64,000 nt of DNA from Gelria sp. Kuro-4 (lineage in GTDB: Bacteria; Bacillota; DTU030; DUMP01), in contig NZ_AP024619.1 of NCBI RefSeq assembly GCF_019668485.1, forward strand, positions 194,501-258,500, given 5' to 3'. Both the position numbers and the translations under genes were made by a program. A model generated the notes under the pieces. It ran no database searches, was not told the DNA's origin, and worked only from the letters and a program-made list of their open reading frames with translations. The number at the start of each line of letters is the position of its first letter. The stretch's first letter is position 1. Of the stretch, positions 8,939-62,530 are shown in pieces.

Positions 8939-9211
8939 CTAGCCGCCGGCGACCAGGGGAAAGATGGATACGGTATCGCCAGGCACGAGCTTCGTCTTCA
9001 GGCCGTCCGGCAGGTGGGCCAAGTGCCGACCGTTGAGGATAAGGATGGCTTCGCGGCTGAGGCCGTCGGGGCCGTAGACGGCACTCTGAAACTTGGGGCC
9101 GTAGCGGGCCGCCAGCTCGCGGAGGAGCTCCTCCACCGAGCCGGCGGCCACTCTTGTTTCTTTGGCGCGGGTGATTTCGCGGATCCCGGCGAAGAAGAGA
9201 ACCCGGACCAT
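8939..9211 (-). CDS. MoaD/ThiS-like sulfur carrier protein
   Basis: A 90-residue ubiquitin-fold sulfur carrier with the C-terminal Gly-Gly (FPLVAGG) that is adenylated and thiocarboxylated in molybdopterin synthesis. The start VRVLFFAGIREI is typical of MoaD. It follows the AOR gene by 3 bases and thus is co-expressed with the tungsten/molybdenum enzyme. In the Aromatoleum AOR cluster a MoaD-like gene (aorD) is found in the same place; a dedicated role in tungstopterin synthesis is plausible. Confidence 0.88.
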   Translation of the reverse strand: MVRVLFFAGIREITRAKETRVAAGSVEELLRELAARYGPKFQSAVYGPDGLSREAILILNGRHLAHLPDGLKTKLVPGDTVSIFPLVAGG

Positions 9212-9214
9212 GCT

Positions 9215-11017
9215 TCACGCCAATCCTAGGCCGGCGAGCTTTTCGGGAGTAGGTACGCCCTCGGCGGACCAGCCGCGCACCTCGTAGTACTGGGGCAGCA
9301 TCTCGGGAAGCTTAGAGACTTTGCCCTTGGCCGGCCCGCTTTCCACCGGCTCGGTGAGGAGGCGCGGCGGGAGAGTGTCGTCCGCGGCAGTGAGCCCGGC
9401 GGCCAGGTTGAACAGCCGCTCCAGGTTCCAGATGCGGTCGCCGCAGGCCATAAAATCTTCTACGCTGTATTCAATACCCGTGGCGGCGCTGAGCATGGCC
9501 GCGATCTCCGGCGCGCCGAGGGCGAAGGTGGTAAAGAGGCAGATGCCGCTGGAATCGAGCGCCGCGGTGAGGTCTTGGAAGGTCTTGAGCCAGGCCGGTT
9601 TCTCGGCGGTGCTGTCCGGATCGAGCTTTTCGGGAATACCAAGGACCTCCGGGGAGGTAAGGTAACCGCGCACGTGGCAGCCGCCGCGGTTGGAGGTGGC
9701 ATACTCCAGGCCCATGCCTTGTACCACGCGGCCGTCGTAAGCCGGCATTTCCTGCTTCTTGACGGACATAGAGAACTCGGGGTGGCCGTATTTCTCGGCC
9801 AGGCGGTAGGAGCCCAGCGCCAGGTCGGCGCCGAAGCCGCGCTTGTACCCGGTGTCCTCCGTGAGCTTTACCATAGCGGCGGCGTCGCCGAAATGGAGCG
9901 CCTGTCCCACGGTGGCTTCGTCCAGCACACCCGCTTCATAGAGGTCCATGGCGCAGGCGATGGTGCTGCCCATGGTGATGGGGTCGATCCCCAGCTCGTT
10001 GCAGAGGAAGTTGGCCTTGCAGATGGCATCGAAGTTATCGATGCCGCACTGGGCCCCGAGCGCCCAGGTGGCCTCGTACTCCGGACCCTCACCGGCGCCG
10101 GCGAAGGGGCCGGACGGCACCGCGGTGACGCGGCCGCAGGCCATGGTGCAAGCGAAGCAGGCCTTCTTGCGCACCAGGCGGGTGGCGGTGTGGGTCTCGC
10201 CGCTGATCTTGTCCGCCGTCTCAAAGTACCCGGTATGGAAGTTCCGCGTCGGCAGCGCGCCCAGCTGGTTGAGGATGTTGATGAGAACGTTGGTACCGTA
10301 AGTAGGGAGGCCGCCAGAGGTCACCGGGTGGGCGGCCAGCTTGGCGCGCGCGTCCAGGACCGCCTGCTTAAAAACCTCTTTGTCGGCCACCTTGACGCCG
10401 CCCGTGCCGCGCACCACCACGGCCTTGAGATTCTTCGAACCCATAACCGCGCCCACGCCGGTACGGCCGGCAGCGCGGTGCTTGTCGTTGATCACCCCGG
10501 CAAAGAGCACCCTGTTCTCGCCGCCGGGGCCGATGCAGGCCACCTTGGCCTCGGGGTCGGTCTCGGCCAGAAGGGTATCGGTGGTTTCGCCGACGACCTT
10601 TCCCCAGAGGTGCCCGGCCGGGCGCAGCTCCACCCGGTCATTGTTGATCCAGAGGTATACCGGCTGGGCGGCACGCCCCTCGATGATGACGAGATCATAC
10701 CCCGCGTACTTCAGTTCCGGGCCGAAGTAGCCGCCGGAGTTGGAGGCGGCGATGGTGCCCGTCAGCGGCCCTTTGGTGACCACGTTGTAGCGCCCGCCCG
10801 AAGTGGCGAAGGTTCCGGTGAGGGGGCCGGTGACGAAGAGGAGCTTGTTCTCCGGGCTGAGCGGATCGACCTTTGCATCCACCTCGTCGCTGAAGATCTT
10901 CTCGCCCAGGCCCCGGGCGCCGATGAACCGGCGCGCCAGCTCGGGGCACAGGGACTCGGTGCCGACTTTTCCCGCACTCAAGTTGACGCGCAGGATCTTG
11001 CCCACCCAACCGTACAT
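9215..11017 (-). CDS. Aldehyde:ferredoxin oxidoreductase, tungsten-dependent large subunit
   Basis: A 600-residue AOR-family enzyme that interconverts aldehydes and carboxylic acids with low-potential electrons. N-terminal bis-pterin binding residues (about 1-210, including GPLTGT and [11 protein letters not shown]) precede the [4Fe-4S] ligands [11 protein letters not shown] (near 290) and a late Cys in SSGICLF. The start chosen is the ATG at 11017, after GGAGGTG and overlapping the stop of the ferredoxin gene by one base; a longer open frame upstream only reflects the ferredoxin in another frame. Length matches the family. Whether W or Mo is used cannot be told from sequence. Confidence 0.93.
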
Positions 11018-11496
11018 CACGCCCGCACCTCCTCCACCAGTTTGGCGAACTTGGCCGAGTAGGCCTTCTTGCGGCCGAGGGTGACCGTGTCGGCCGGCAG
11101 GTACTCGATGGCCTTTTCCGGGCAGAAGGCCACGCACTGCGGGTCGCCTTCGCAATAGTCGCACTTCACCGCCTGCTTGGCGGCGGGGCTGTAGGTGATG
11201 TTGCCGAAGGGGCAGGCCACCACGCACATGCGGCAGCCGATGCATTTTTCCCCGTCCACGGAGACCAGGCCCGCGGCCGCGTCTCTGGTAATGGCTCCCA
11301 CTTTACAGACCTTCAGGCAGGACGGCTCGTCGCACTGCAGGCAGGTCAGCGGCACGGCAATCCCCGCCTCGAAGCGCAGCACGGAAATACGCGCGGCCGC
11401 CGGCCGGAACTCGCCCTCGTGCTGCAGGGAGCAGGCCAGCTCGCAGCTCCCGCAGCCGGTGCAGCGCTCGGGGCTGATGAGTAGGACGTGGCTCAC
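11017..11496 (-). CDS. Four-cluster ferredoxin subunit of the AOR complex
   Basis: A 159-residue polyferredoxin with four Cys groups: [35 protein letters not shown] and [14 protein letters not shown]. This is the HycB/AorA pattern, binding four [4Fe-4S] clusters and carrying electrons from the AOR site to the diaphorase. The start is a GTG nine bases after GAGGGGG. Its stop overlaps the AOR start by one base, so the two subunits are probably made in equal amounts. Confidence 0.9.
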
Positions 11497-11667: not shown

Positions 11668-12432
11668 TCAGGGAGTCGCTGATCCAAGCGTCCGGCCGAT
11701 AAGTCGGGCCTCGTCCTCCCGGCGGCAGCGGGGGCAGAACCGGGCCTCCGGTGGCGCTCCAGGCAGTTCCTTCGCCGCCCACGCCAGCTGTTCCACCGTG
11801 GTGAAAGGCCGGCCGCAGCGCTCGCAGCGCACCAGGGTAAAGTCGCGGTCCCAGATGCGGCGCCGCTCGGCCGTCTCTTCCACCTTAATGGCGCCGGTGG
11901 GACAGACGGCGGCGCAGGCGCCGCAGCCCACGCAGGCCTCCGGCGGCTCGGCGAAGGGCGGACCGACCGTCTTTTCCCGCCCGCGCCAGGCGGTCCCGAT
12001 GGCGTCATTGCCTTCAGCAGCGCAGGCGCGCACACAGCGCAGGCAAAGGATGCACTCTTGGGGCTCGGCGGCAAGCCGCGCTTCAGCCTGCACCCCATAG
12101 CGGGCGGCGAGCTCCGCCACAGCCTCCACCTTGGGGTGGCGCGCCAGGAGCAGCGTAAGGAGATAACGGCGCGCGGCCTGCACCTGCGGGCTTTCGGTGA
12201 GTACCTCCAGCGGCTTTTCCACGGGGTAGAGGCAGGAGGCCACCAGGCGACGGCGCCGCCCCTCCTCAACCTCCACCAGGCAGAGCCGGCAGCCCCCCAA
12301 AGGCGGCAGGGCCGGGTGGTCACAGAGCGTGGGGATGAACACTCCCGCCCCCTTGAGGACATCCAGCAGCCGGGCACCCGGCGTGGCCGGCACCGCCGCG
12401 CCGTTTATTCGGAGCACGATGCTGCCTTTCAT
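11668..12432 (-). CDS. HoxU/NuoG-N-like iron-sulfur protein
   Basis: A 254-residue electron-transfer subunit. The N-terminus (1-75) is a plant-type [2Fe-2S] domain with C-x10-C-x2-C and a later Cys (CDHPALPPLGGCRLC and ASC). Two [4Fe-4S] groups follow: ECILCLRCVRAC (about 127-137) and ACVGCGACAAVCPTGAI (about 166-182). The C-terminus has two further Cys pairs (CERCGRPF, FCPRCRRE), like zinc-ribbon tails of formate or hydrogenase partners. It links NuoF-like NADH oxidation to the polyferredoxin. It ends 171 bases before the next gene; that gap has only a GC hairpin. Confidence 0.88.
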   Translation of the reverse strand: MKGSIVLRINGAAVPATPGARLLDVLKGAGVFIPTLCDHPALPPLGGCRLCLVEVEEGRRRRLVASCLYPVEKPLEVLTESPQVQAARRYLLTLLLARHPKVEAVAELAARYGVQAEARLAAEPQECILCLRCVRACAAEGNDAIGTAWRGREKTVGPPFAEPPEACVGCGACAAVCPTGAIKVEETAERRRIWDRDFTLVRCERCGRPFTTVEQLAWAAKELPGAPPEARFCPRCRREDEARLIGRTLGSATP

Positions 12433-12442
12433 GTTGTTGACC

Positions 12443-14326
12443 TCACTTCCGCAAAACTTCTTGCCGGGCGCGCCGCGTGATCCTTACGGCAGCAAAGCGG
12501 CAGGCGTCGTAGCAGGCGCCGCAGCGCGTGCAGGCGGCCTCGTTCAAGAGGTGAGCGCGGCCCTTCTCCCCGCTGATGCTGCCCGTGGGGCAGGCACGGG
12601 CGCAGGCGCCGCACCCCCGGCAGGCGGCCGGGTCGATCCAGTAGGCGAAGAGCGCGCGGCACACGCCGGCGCGGCAGAAGCCTGCCAGGTGCTCCTCGTA
12701 CTCCTCCCGGAAGTAGCGCAGGGTGGAAAGGACCGGGTTAGCGGCCGTCCGGCCCAGGGCACAGAGGGCCGTTTCTTTAAGCCCCAGCGACAGTTCCTCA
12801 ATGAGCTCGATGTCCCCGGCCTGCCCCCGGCCCTGGGTGAGATCGGTAAGAAGGCGCAAGAGTTGGGGTATCCCTTCCCGGCAGGGCAGGCACTTTCCGC
12901 ACGACTCTTCGGCCAGGAACTTGAGGAAGTAGCGGGCCAGGTCCACCATGCAGGTGCGCTCGTCCATCACGATGAGGCCGCCCGAGCCCATCATGGAACC
13001 TGCCTCAGTGAGGCGCTCATAGTCCACCGGGAGATCCAGCAGGCCGGCCGGGATGCAGCCGCCGGAAGGCCCGCCCGTCTGCACCGCCTTTACCTGCCGG
13101 TCGCGCAGCACACCGCCCCCGATGTCGTAGATGATCTCGCGCAGGGTGGTGCCCATGGGCACCTCCACCAGGCCGGTGTTCTTCACCTTGCCCACCAGGG
13201 AGAACACCTTGGTGCCGCGGCTTTTCTCCGTGCCCAAGCCGGCATACCGCTGCCAGCCGCGGTTGATGATTTCCGGCACGTTCGCCCACGTTTCCACGTT
13301 GTTCAGCACCGTAGGCTGCTCGTAAAGGCCCTTTTCCGTGGCGTGGATGTACTTGGCCCGCGGTTCGCCCGGGCGCCCCTCCAGGGAGGCCATGAGGGCC
13401 GTGGACTCCCCGCAGACGAAGGCCCCGCCGCCGCGGCTCACGCTTATGTCAAAGCCAAAGCCGCTCCCTAAGATGTCTTCTCCGAGGAGGCCCAGCTCCC
13501 GCGCCTGGGCCAGCGCGGTGGTAAGGTGCTTCACTGCCAGGGGGTACTCGGCCCGCACATAGATGAACCCTGTGTGGGCGCCCACGGCGTAGGCGCCGAT
13601 GATCATCCCTTCGATCACGCTGTGCGGGTCGCCTTCCATGATGCTCCGGTCCATGAACGCCCCCGGATCGCCCTCGTCGCCGTTGGCGACGACGTAGCGC
13701 ACGGCCCCGGGCGCCCGCCGGCAGGTCTCCCACTTGCGGCCGGTGGGAAAGCCGCCCCCGCCCCGCCCGCGCAGGCCGGAAAGCTTAATCGTTTCAATAA
13801 CCTCTTCCGGCGTCATACCGGTCAGGGCTTTGGCCAGGGCGCTGTAGCCGCCGGCGGCGATGTAGTCGTCGATGTTCTCCGGGTCGATGAGCCCGTTGTG
13901 CCGCAGGGCCACGCGGTACTGCCGCTTATAAAAAGGTATCTCGTCGGCACTCGGGATGGCCTGCTTGGTGTTGGGATCGTGGTAGAGCAGGCGGGGAACG
14001 AGCCGGCCCGCGGCCACCGTGTCCCGCAGGACGGCGGCGGCATCGTCCGGCTGCACCCGCTGGTAGAGGATGTTCCCCGGCTGCACGATGACGATCGGCC
14101 CGCGCTCACAGTACCCGTGGCAGCCGGATGTCTTCAGCCTAAGCCCGATCTCGGCCACCAAGCCCTGGCGGGCCGCTTCCTCCTTCAGCGCCTCTAACAC
14201 CTTAAGGCTCCCGTTGGCCCGGCAGCCCGTCCCGGCGCACACCCATACCGCCGGGCGGCCCTCAGCGCGCCCAGCCGAAAGGCGGGTGCGGTAGGCGGCC
14301 AGCTCTTCAACGCTTGCAAGTCGCAT
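12443..14326 (-). CDS. NuoF-like NADH dehydrogenase subunit with 2Fe-2S and 2x4Fe-4S domains
   Basis: A 627-residue diaphorase. Residues about 25-120 are a thioredoxin-like [2Fe-2S] domain (C-x4-C then CHGYC). The NuoF core (about 130-545) has the FMN/NADH loop [48 protein letters not shown] and the N3-type ligands [10 protein letters not shown]. Two C-terminal clusters are in [12 protein letters not shown] and [11 protein letters not shown]. This is the HydB/HndC layout of bifurcating hydrogenases, so the AOR here is likely coupled to NAD(H), possibly with ferredoxin. Start ATG after GGGAG. Confidence 0.93.
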
Positions 14327-14328
14327 GC

Positions 14329-14793
14329 TTACAACTCCCGCAGCAGTTTTTCGACCTTGTCCGGCGTCATCTGGCCGTAGGTATCGTCGCCGATGACCAC
14401 CACCGGCGCCAGGGCGCAGGCCCCCAGGCAGTTCACCGTCTCCAGGGTGAAACGCCCGTCGGGGGTGGTCTCCCCCGGCTTAATGCCCAGGACCTCTTCG
14501 AGGCGCTCCAGCACCGCCGGGCTGCCCCGCAGGTGGCAGGCCGTACCCAGGCAGGTACGGATCACCCGTTCCCCGCGCGGCTTGAGGGTGAGCGCCTTGT
14601 AGAAGGTAGCGACGCTGTAGACCCGGCTCTCCGGCACCGCCAGGTACTGTGCCACCTCTTTGAGGGCCGCACGCGGCAGGTAGTGGTAGCTCTCCTGGAG
14701 GTCAAGGAGGATCGCCAGAAGTTCCCCCGGCCGGCGCGGGTGCCGCTCGAGGATCCCGGCCACTTCGGCCCCTTGACTTTCCGCTGGCACCAT
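14329..14793 (-). CDS. NuoE-like 24 kDa [2Fe-2S] subunit
   Basis: A 154-residue thioredoxin-fold [2Fe-2S] protein, NuoE/HydC type. The four ligands are CLGTAC (C-x4-C) and CLGAC (C-x3-C). It pairs with NuoF in complex I-like diaphorases. The start chosen is the ATG at 14793 after AAAGGAAG; the open frame runs upstream into the leader hairpin, which makes the longer version unlikely. It is the first gene of the operon, 2 bases before nuoF. Confidence 0.9.
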
Positions 14794-14829
14794 GCTGTCA
14801 CTTCCTTTAGGGGTTCGCTGCGCAAAGCA

Positions 14830-14940
14830 AAAGGTACCCTCTTTTGAAAGAGTACCTTCCTTTGCCAATGGCAGGCCGAGGGATTGCTCCCCGACCCTGA
14901 CGTTTGCCCTTCCCGGAGGGAAGCGGCAAATCGGAAGTAA
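14830..14940 (-). promoter_or_regulatory. Structured 5' leader, candidate Moco/Tuco-type riboswitch
   Basis: The leader of the nuoE-AOR operon folds by eye into several stems: a closing helix CUUCC/GGAAG (14933-14937 with 14856-14860), a long hairpin with a UCC loop (UUUGCC-G-CUUCCC/GGGAAG-GGCAAA), a hairpin closed by a GCAA tetraloop, and a small UGCC/GGCA hairpin. The 3' strand of the closing helix overlaps the left arm of a second hairpin (14831-14858: AAGGTAC.../...GTACCTT) followed by UUUU. The two are mutually exclusive, as in riboswitches. Moco/Tuco RNAs precede such genes, but I could not match a consensus securely. Confidence 0.5.
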
Positions 14941-14966
14941 CTTTCTGAAGTTATTGCTTCTTTAAG

Positions 14967-14972
14967 ATTATA
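14967..14972 (-). promoter_or_regulatory. -10 element of the nuoE-AOR operon
   Basis: A perfect TATAAT at the start of the structured leader, about 175 bases before the nuoE start codon. No good -35 is present at 17 bases, so a weak or activated promoter is possible. Confidence 0.45.
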
Positions 14973-15037
14973 TTAGCGACGGCGGGCGAAAATCCTGCCT
15001 ACTGAAATATTAAAAATCAGTAAGTTTAGCACAGAGA

Positions 15038-15057: not shown

Positions 15058-15363
15058 TCAGGCGAAAAGCTCATCCCCGCTCCGGCCCTCCAAACCCGGG
15101 TGGCAGTCGAAACGGACCACCCCCACCTTGGCCCGGCCGGCCACGGCGCGGGCAACCCGCGCCGCACCCTCATGGCCGAACCCGCCGCACAGTTCAACCG
15201 CCTTGACGCCGGCGGCCGCAAGCTCGGCCGCCGTCTGCTCGGCGGCGCCGTAATCCGGCACCCCCACCACGGTAAGCTCCACCTCCGGCGAGGGCACCAC
15301 GGCCCGGTTCACCTGGGGGTCGGCACCGGGGGCGACAAAGATGAAGGCTGCTTTGAGTGCCAT
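15058..15363 (-). CDS. DUF6506-like small protein in the acetoin operon
   Basis: A 101-residue protein of an uncharacterised family, which I recognise with moderate certainty as DUF6506. Visible: a beta strand start (LKAAFIFVAPGADP), ELTVVGVPDY, VELCGGFGHEGAARVARAV and KVGVVRFDCHPG. No membrane segment or signal. It is the last gene of the acoABC-lpd operon, after AAGGAGGG, 78 bases behind the lipoamide dehydrogenase. Co-operon placement suggests a link to acetoin metabolism or lipoyl enzymes, but no function is known. Confidence 0.65.
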   Translation of the reverse strand: MALKAAFIFVAPGADPQVNRAVVPSPEVELTVVGVPDYGAAEQTAAELAAAGVKAVELCGGFGHEGAARVARAVAGRAKVGVVRFDCHPGLEGRSGDELFA

Positions 15364-26390: not shown

Positions 26391-26457
26391 AAAAACTTAA
26401 ACCAGCGAAGATTTCCCCATCCAAGCGGGAAAATCCTGCTGGCAAGTAAATACAGCA

Positions 26458-31526: not shown

Positions 31527-32381
31527 TTGGAGTACATTATTTACTGTGATGAATCAATAAAGCAAGGCAAGTACTACAGCAACTTCTACGGAGGCACATT
31601 AGTATCTTCGGAATGGCTCACAGAAGTCCGTTCTGCGTTGCAGTCCAAGAAGGAAGGCCTGGGGCTGCAGGAAATCAAGTGGGCTAAGACTTCAGCGGCT
31701 TATTTAGACAAGTATATTGAGATGATGGCGTTGTTCTTTGATTTCATAGCTGCCGGAAAAATCAAGGTGAGGATCATGTTTACCCATAATATATACCAGC
31801 CCAAAAACTTGACGCGCGAGCAACTTCAAGAATCATACTTTAAGCTCTACTATCAGTTTCTCAAACACGCCTTCGGCCTCAGGTATTCTAATCCGGGTAG
31901 GGATCCCATTTATCTTCGCCTCTACTTTGATAAATTCCCGGACACCAAGGAGAAAGCAGATAAGTTCAAGGAATTCGTTTATGGCTTACAACACCTTAAA
32001 GAATTTAGGGAAGCGCACCTTCTGATACGGCGAGAAGATATCGCCGAAGTCGATTCGAAGGACCATGTCATTTTACAGTGCACGGATATTGTCCTGGGAT
32101 CCATGCAGTTTCGCCTTAACGATCTCCATAAAGAAAAACCCAAAGGGCAAAGACGTAGAGCTGCCAAGACCATAGCTAAGGAGAAGCTCTACAAATACAT
32201 CAATAAACGGATAAGGCAAATCCATCCCGGTTTCAATATTGGAGTATCCACGGGAACGCCAAATGGCGTTACTGATCGCTGGCATCATCCTTACAGACAC
32301 TGGGAGTTTATCCCTGAGAACCACGAAGTTGACCACACTAAAAGCAAACACAAACAGGAAGGCCCCATCGCTCCTACATGA
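31527..32381 (+). CDS. DUF3800 domain protein
   Basis: A 284-residue protein of the DUF3800 family, which has an RNase H-like fold and is frequent in mobile and defence islands. The hallmark start YIIYCDESIKQG with the acidic pair, LRLYFDKFPDTKEKADKFK in the middle and CTDIVLGSMQFRLND with a conserved Asp are visible. Start: TTG at 31527 seven bases after CGGGGG; no in-frame ATG fits. It appears intact in a neighbourhood of broken genes. Confidence 0.82.
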   Translation: MEYIIYCDESIKQGKYYSNFYGGTLVSSEWLTEVRSALQSKKEGLGLQEIKWAKTSAAYLDKYIEMMALFFDFIAAGKIKVRIMFTHNIYQPKNLTREQLQESYFKLYYQFLKHAFGLRYSNPGRDPIYLRLYFDKFPDTKEKADKFKEFVYGLQHLKEFREAHLLIRREDIAEVDSKDHVILQCTDIVLGSMQFRLNDLHKEKPKGQRRRAAKTIAKEKLYKYINKRIRQIHPGFNIGVSTGTPNGVTDRWHHPYRHWEFIPENHEVDHTKSKHKQEGPIAPT

Positions 32382-32626
32382 GTATCCCAAACATAAACTT
32401 GGGACTTCGAAGCAGACAGGGCCTTCCGCAACCCTCTGTAGCTAGGCGCCGTTATGCGCGCACGGCATGGAGCCGACTTTCGCATACAGAGGACTCATTC
32501 ACATTATACGGTTTGCTTAGCTTTATTATACTACATTCTGGTGTAGAATCCTCCTGGAAATTCGGTTTGCCCATAAAAAAATTTGATAAAAAGCCCACTG
32601 GCATCCAAAATCCTCCGAAAGCGATT
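32382..32626. other. Gap between DUF3800 gene and recombinase remnant
   Basis: About 245 bases with AT-rich stretches and no recognisable gene on either strand. Confidence 0.4.
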
Positions 32627-46646: not shown

Positions 46647-46664
46647 AAGCTCTCGGTAGTCAGC

Positions 46665-46756
46665 ATATGGCACCTACGCTGGCATTACCCAGATCAGGTT
46701 TAAGGGTCGGGACCGCCAGGTCCCCTCTCAGCCGGATCCTTCCAGCTCCCCTTTTG
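46665..46756 (-). promoter_or_regulatory. TPP riboswitch (THI element)
   Basis: The minus strand has all core elements: GGGGAGC near the 5' end, GGCTGAGAGGG, CCTGATCTGGGTAATGCCAG and CGTAGG at the 3' end. It precedes the thiamine-precursor transport operon, which is then repressed by thiamine diphosphate. Confidence 0.96.
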
Positions 46757-46761
46757 TCCCC

Positions 46762-46790
46762 ATTATACCTTTCTGACGGCCACTCGTCAA
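46762..46790 (-). promoter_or_regulatory. Sigma-A promoter of the thiamine uptake operon
   Basis: TTGACG (46785-46790), 17 bases, TATAAT (46762-46767) on the minus strand, just in front of the TPP aptamer. Confidence 0.9.
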
Positions 46791-61604: not shown

Positions 61605-61730
61605 TAAAGTTGTCTGTGCTGAATCCTCCTCGAGAGGTACGGGGGAATGTACCGCTTGTCAGCGGCGGGTGCATCTCTTACGAGAGGGACATCCTTCGGT
61701 CCTAACCTGGAACTAACCCCGGAAGCGAGT
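61605..61730 (+). promoter_or_regulatory. c-di-AMP riboswitch (ydaO/yuaA type)
   Basis: Elements of the ydaO class in order: GCTGAATCC, GGGGGAATGTACC, CGGCGGGTGCATCTCT, GAGAGGGAC, CGGTCCTAACC and the 3' mark CTAACCCCGGAAGCG. The class controls wall hydrolases and osmolyte genes. It lies directly upstream of a LysM/SleB hydrolase gene, the usual partner. Confidence 0.8.
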
Positions 61731-61750
61731 GAAGGAAAGGAGCGAGGAAC

Positions 61751-62466: not shown

Positions 62467-62530
62467 GCCCGGCAGGATTTTTACCTTACAGGGACGAATT
62501 ATGCATCATAAACAGATGATAGACGATTCT

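Follow-up and report, generated by a model that had tools for sequence, protein, structure and literature searches.

The leader upstream of the tungsten aldehyde oxidoreductase operon in the window (the whole analysed stretch of 64,000 nucleotides from Gelria sp. Kuro-4) is likely a cofactor-sensing riboswitch of the Moco/Tuco family, of an ON-type subclass, here called class A, that is specialised for tungsten-enzyme genes. On the minus strand, a multistem RNA is located at 14940-14829, with its core at 14940-14853, the end of a terminator at 14829 and the start of the first gene, worC (nuoE), at 14793. The 3' strand of its closing helix is common to the terminator.

A TATAAT, a putative -10 box, precedes the leader at 14972-14967 (-), while no -35 box or full sigma-70 promoter at this position passed a consensus scan. 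A stretch of GCAGGATTTT is found upstream of the leader at 14989-14998 (-) and again at 26430-26439 (-) and 62472-62481 (+), and similar stretches are seen in the orthologous leaders L009 and L011. With up to one mismatch it has 10 matches in the window against 4.4 expected; it may be a promoter element recognised by a different sigma factor. Between the leader and a dehydrogenase-complex operon lies the gene for a DUF6506 protein (15058-15363, -), whose orthologue has the same place in G001. Other RNA elements in the window are a c-di-AMP riboswitch (61607-61742, +), a TPP riboswitch (46658-46762, -) and a DUF3800-VIII RNA (32359-32425, -).

The closing helix P1 pairs CUUCC (14937-14933, -), supported by the match to the Rfam family RF01055, by folding and by covarying positions among relatives, with GGAAG (14860-14856, -). 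It encloses three hairpins: P2 (14931-14903, -; AUUUGCC-G-CUUCCC-UCC-GGGAAGGGCAAA), which has no 11-nt tetraloop receptor; P4 (14897-14873, -), with a GCAA tetraloop on an A-U closing pair, supported by RF01055 and by relatives; and P5 (14872-14864, -; GCC-AUU-GGC), which carries the class A signature CCUGCC...GCAAAGGA. The terminator-like hairpin, GGUACUCUUU-CAAA-AGAGGGUACC-UUUU, spans 14856-14829 (-) and begins at 14860 if the GGAA strand of P1 is added. The 3' strand of P1 thus doubles as part of the left arm of a predicted intrinsic terminator (14860-14829, -), which cannot coexist with the lower part of P1. The preliminary description had proposed the TATAAT, the three hairpins, one of them with a GCAA loop, the closing helix and its overlap with a hairpin ending in UUUU, all of which are present on the minus strand, and the exclusive pairing it suggested is supported for the lower part of P1. 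Only its spacing needs correction, as the gap between the UUUU and the nuoE ATG is 35 nt rather than 37.

At default cut-offs Rfam gives no match at the leader. With relaxed thresholds, Infernal aligns RF01055 (Moco/Tuco RNA) to it end to end, with P3 missing, at 33.4 bits (E 2e-6). A relation to this family had been raised as one possibility; the score of the match is just below the gathering cut-off of 36 bits, which 11/18 class A loci pass with 36.3-49.7 bits. Other Rfam families gave only weak matches here (E 0.16 or worse) and were rejected. Like the P3-containing type, exemplified by the E. coli moaA leader, the RNA of the window arranges P1, P2, P4 and P5 around one conserved junction with the letters UCCGA, AGGG and AAAGGA, carries a GNRA loop (GCAA) on P4 and forms the leader of a pterin-cofactor gene set. 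It differs in the absence of P3, in a P5 that reads CCUGCC...GCAAAGG instead of the CCUCCC...GGAAAGG of C-G pairs, a two-sided change that keeps the pairing, and in the absence of the 11-nt receptor, which is usual in RF01055 though not universal. The family was described in 2008, and its P3-less members were proposed to sense the tungsten cofactor, Tuco (Regulski et al., PMC2408646). Also in keeping with this P3-less type, which is found upstream of tungsten-cofactor or pterin genes, a worCBASL-moaD operon follows the leader. By sequence, the leader is a divergent RF01055 member without P3. Of the two possibilities raised earlier, a divergent member or a new class, the first therefore stands, while the second is reduced to a distinct variant inside a known family.

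The genome of the window also holds three canonical P3-less RF01055 RNAs (65-69 bits), followed by genes for an MPT-domain-like lipoprotein, moeA and a tupA-like tungstate-binding protein, names that come from reading the sequences and from BLAST between the loci rather than from a curated search. As two of these canonical RNAs precede moeA and a tupA-like gene, the genome contains both of the classes described below.

The genes downstream are worC-like (NuoE family, 2Fe-2S thioredoxin-like; 14329..14793), worB-like (NuoF family, FMN/NADH-binding; 12443..14326), worA-like (NuoG/HoxU N-terminal family; 11668..12432), worS-like (4Fe-4S subunit; 11017..11496) and worL-like (aldehyde ferredoxin oxidoreductase with AFOR_N and AFOR_C, the tungsten-cofactor subunit; 9215..11017), followed by a gene for a MoaD/ThiS-family protein (8939..9211), all on the minus strand. 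This matches the type-2 order of the electron-bifurcating class IV tungsten oxidoreductases, WorCBASL, in which worX is variably present (PMC13328260); the MoaD-family gene is a candidate worX.

Hairpins are frequent in GC-rich spacers, and a chance origin of the fold was considered. The leader is, however, more stable than 200/200 dinucleotide shuffles (z = -4.33), and it has orthologues in other genera and phyla. Among 61 related genomes, a DNA search detected orthologous leaders in five, G001, G002, G005, G023 and G025, and all of these leaders precede AOR-type genes (AOR, aldehyde oxidoreductases of the AOR/WOR type) or the same operon as in the window; the G005 stretch stops before the AOR gene. 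We aligned 74 class A sequences, each less than 88% identical to the rest, with MAFFT and without fitting to the structure. In this alignment 93% of the cells pair, and two-sided compensatory cells number 306, compared with 101 +/- 12 after shuffling and 25-130 when the partners are slid. All of P1, P2 and P4 add to this signal, while P5 and the A-U closing pair are invariant, partly owing to the way the sequences were gathered. Compensatory changes, named at the outset as the support to look for, are thus plentiful in the orthologous leaders, and the covariation supports the class A fold. As the structure is conserved with covariation among relatives it lies well beyond chance, and these comparative data refute a chance fold, to which we assign next to no probability.

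Relatives were collected in two ways. With a covariance model of the window and four orthologous leaders (R1) we searched 398 genomes of the phylum; this search is free of fixed letters but leans to class A. A DNA-pattern search of genome_contigs fetched 80 loci, about 70 of them supported by the covariance model; as some letters of the P4 loop and P5 are set in its pattern, this set is biased for them. Of 12 pattern matches in viral contigs none was supported by the model, and viral spread was rejected. Members occur in Bacillota, among them Moorella, Thermincola, Clostridium and Halanaerobium, as well as in Chloroflexota, Actinomycetota, Synergistaceae, a Spirochaetes MAG and others.

About 150 P3-less relatives were compared, and they split into two classes. 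Class A, including the window, has P5 CCUGCC...GCAAAGGA (G-C/C-G) and a P4 tip of A-GYRA-U, near-uniformly for P5 across several phyla. Class B, which corresponds to the published P3-lacking Tuco type (PMC2408646), has P5 CCUCCC...GGAAAGGA (C-G/C-G) and G-GAAA-C. The two P5 forms differ by a base change in each strand. A crude pattern for the receptor is matched by 9/96 class A but 32/55 class B RNAs. Both classes lack P3 and occur in tungsten-using bacteria, among them the genome of the window. Few sequences are intermediate, and of the four unclassified ones three also precede AOR genes. In the part of the literature that was searched, we found no study that sets an AOR-linked ON group apart; an earlier notice of the split may exist. 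Class A therefore appears to be a previously undivided variant of the known family, and the two-class split appears to be new here.

Some further features of these RNAs were observed. Many clostridial class A RNAs (L066, L085, L072, L113, L115 and similar ones) carry a P2 internal loop, UGAC...GCCGG, at the place of the 11-nt receptor, which may be another receptor for GYRA loops. Two class A RNAs lie back to back on opposite strands in each of L113 (189-601) and L115 (2614-3030), each RNA facing its own gene; 3/4 have an AOR gene downstream and the fourth reaches the contig end after 188 bases. The genomes G027, G054, G072, G143 and G155 have 12-18 class B model matches each, as reported for Syntrophomonas wolfei.

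The two classes differ in gene context. AOR genes lie downstream of 75/89 class A but 3/52 class B unique sequences, counting those with an AOR match or with 1.5 kb or more of DNA downstream; at the level of 80% clusters the numbers are 35/42 and 2/41 (Fisher p 5e-14). Enzymes of the AOR group belong to the tungsten enzymes (PMC13328260, PMC12096430). The 14 class A cases that lack AOR include the window and its G005 orthologue, both read from loci that end after 1.5 kb; the AOR gene of the window lies 3.8 kb downstream of the leader, in the same operon. Among the remaining exceptions, as named by sequence reading, are six formate dehydrogenases, five of them apparently interrupted by an in-frame stop, as well as two operons of the DMSO-reductase type and a gene for an AcoR-like regulator. 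Formate dehydrogenases and DMSO-reductase-type enzymes use a nucleotide-bearing Mo or W cofactor. As some class A RNAs precede such genes, describing the class as linked to AOR only would be inexact. The five interrupted formate dehydrogenases are FdnG-like (L141, L137, L096, L089, L086), and their stop lies ~190-200 codons in, as expected for selenocysteine. At the AcoR-like gene (L237, G322) an alcohol-dehydrogenase-like gene lies behind the regulator, and there is no pterin-cofactor enzyme. Class B, by comparison, precedes tupA/tupB, moaA, moaC, moeA and MPT-domain genes, i.e. genes for uptake and cofactor synthesis.

In the reverse direction, 40 AOR genes (30 from other genomes and the 10 full ones here) had five class A RNAs and one class B RNA directly upstream, in loci holding 1.5 kb of upstream DNA. 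Most AOR genes had neither class upstream. Class A thus predicts AOR well, but AOR does not imply class A. Eleven AOR-family matches, ten full genes and a fragment, are present in the genome of the window. Near ten of them (nine other full genes and the fragment) no class A RNA was found, either with filters off on loci with 1.5 kb flanks or with model R2 there and on longer upstream stretches; the R2 match at L267 is the class B RNA near moeA.

An ordinary Moco/Tuco riboswitch, with the same ligand and OFF logic, would also account for the score and the structure of the leader, which place it in the family. The P5 change would then be harmless drift and the tetraloop contact simply lost; four published members have GCAA loops and no 11-nt receptor (PMC2408646), and one class B RNA (L295) is itself located directly upstream of an AOR gene. 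Yet the P5 change is two-sided and near-uniform over several phyla, and it tracks both AOR genes and a different terminator geometry, a linkage that drift does not predict. We regard this explanation as unlikely, but as the most serious competitor to the class A riboswitch.

The terminator geometry is as follows. A terminator-like hairpin follows 69/96 class A and 41/55 class B RNAs, leaving about a quarter of the class A RNAs with none detected. Its left arm starts within the 3' strand of P1 in 68/69 class A but only 1/41 class B cases (32/32 and 1/33 at 80% identity clusters, p 9e-18). In a second class B set, collected with its own model (R3) and sharing few loci with the first, the overlap was found in 0/19. 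As the P1 strand is shared with the terminator in class A, a locked P1 would weaken the terminator and class A would be of the ON type. Most likely, class A thus acts as an ON switch and class B as an OFF switch. For class B, we infer the OFF type from the separate position of the terminator, the gene context and the precedent in E. coli, where there is genetic evidence of cofactor sensing and moaA is repressed by Moco (PMC2408646); class B lies before tup, moaA and moeA genes, which fits feedback repression. For a class B antiterminator, a simple duplex test was not significant (5/41 at p<=0.05). In contrast to the repressed E. coli moaA leader, the overlap of the terminator with P1 in class A suggests activation.

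For the window, the unconstrained minimum is the terminator fold, and the competing folds differ by 3.1 kcal/mol (-54.0 with the terminator, -50.9 with P1 formed). The whole terminator hairpin is calculated at -16.2 kcal/mol, and at -8.7 once the 3' strand of P1 is taken, so that the ON effect in the window may be partial. P1 overlaps the terminator core only slightly, by one G plus four pairs at the outside, and its formation could leave a 9-bp hairpin intact. The sequence GGAAG occurs twice in this leader, in P1 and in the ribosome site ahead of worC, which would allow a translational switch: the CUUCC strand of P1 could pair with the GGAAG of the Shine-Dalgarno sequence AAAGGAAG, and a ligand-stabilised P1 would free the ribosome site. 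The feature conserved across the family, however, is the terminator overlapping P1. Translational control could act as a second layer, while as the main mechanism it is improbable.

For the class A riboswitch we propose the following mechanism. Without ligand, the nascent RNA would form the terminator by borrowing the 3' strand of P1, and transcription would halt before worC. The ligand, probably the tungsten-pyranopterin cofactor (Tuco), would be bound directly by the core of P2, P4 and P5 and lock P1; the lower left arm would no longer be available to the terminator, and transcription would continue into the electron-bifurcating tungsten aldehyde oxidoreductase operon. Cofactor binding by class A is argued from homology, and the structure could instead be a constitutive attenuator or a leader bound by a protein. 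Against this, the family to which it is homologous has the genetic evidence of cofactor sensing from E. coli (PMC2408646), the core of the multistem junction is conserved, and the structure shows covariation. We consider such a leader slightly more improbable still than a translational switch.

Variants of known riboswitches with changed specificity have been described for guanine/2'-dG/xanthine and for SAM/spermidine (PMC9295807, PMC10853860). Class A resembles them in its known fold with few core changes and altered gene context, and differs in that its expression platform is changed too and its ligand is proposed by inference. Tungsten-dependent riboswitches of Eubacterium limosum are cited in a passage concerning iron transporters (PMC13390469); as far as that passage goes, they resemble the present case as riboswitch control linked to tungsten, in an organism that has a bifurcating WOR. 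A response to the tungsten cofactor with discrimination against Moco has not been reported for any P3-less RNA in the literature searched. Tentatively, and at somewhat less than an even chance, class A may be a separate riboswitch class that derives from the Moco aptamer, sensing W-bis-pyranopterin selectively and activating tungsten-enzyme genes beside class B OFF switches for uptake and synthesis in the same cells.

Whether any RNA senses the tungsten rather than the molybdenum cofactor has been a question since 2008, when the absence of P3 was the only ground for proposing tungsten sensing. The signature of P5 and the P4 loop divides the P3-less RNAs into one group of ON architecture that is linked to enzymes and another that is linked to synthesis and uptake and has separate terminators, and matched pairs of both classes within single genomes, that of the window included, make ligand choice and polarity comparable. 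If our interpretation is true, cofactor supply would switch on the tungsten-enzyme genes, and class A would allow tungsten enzymes to be recognised by sequence in anaerobes of several phyla.
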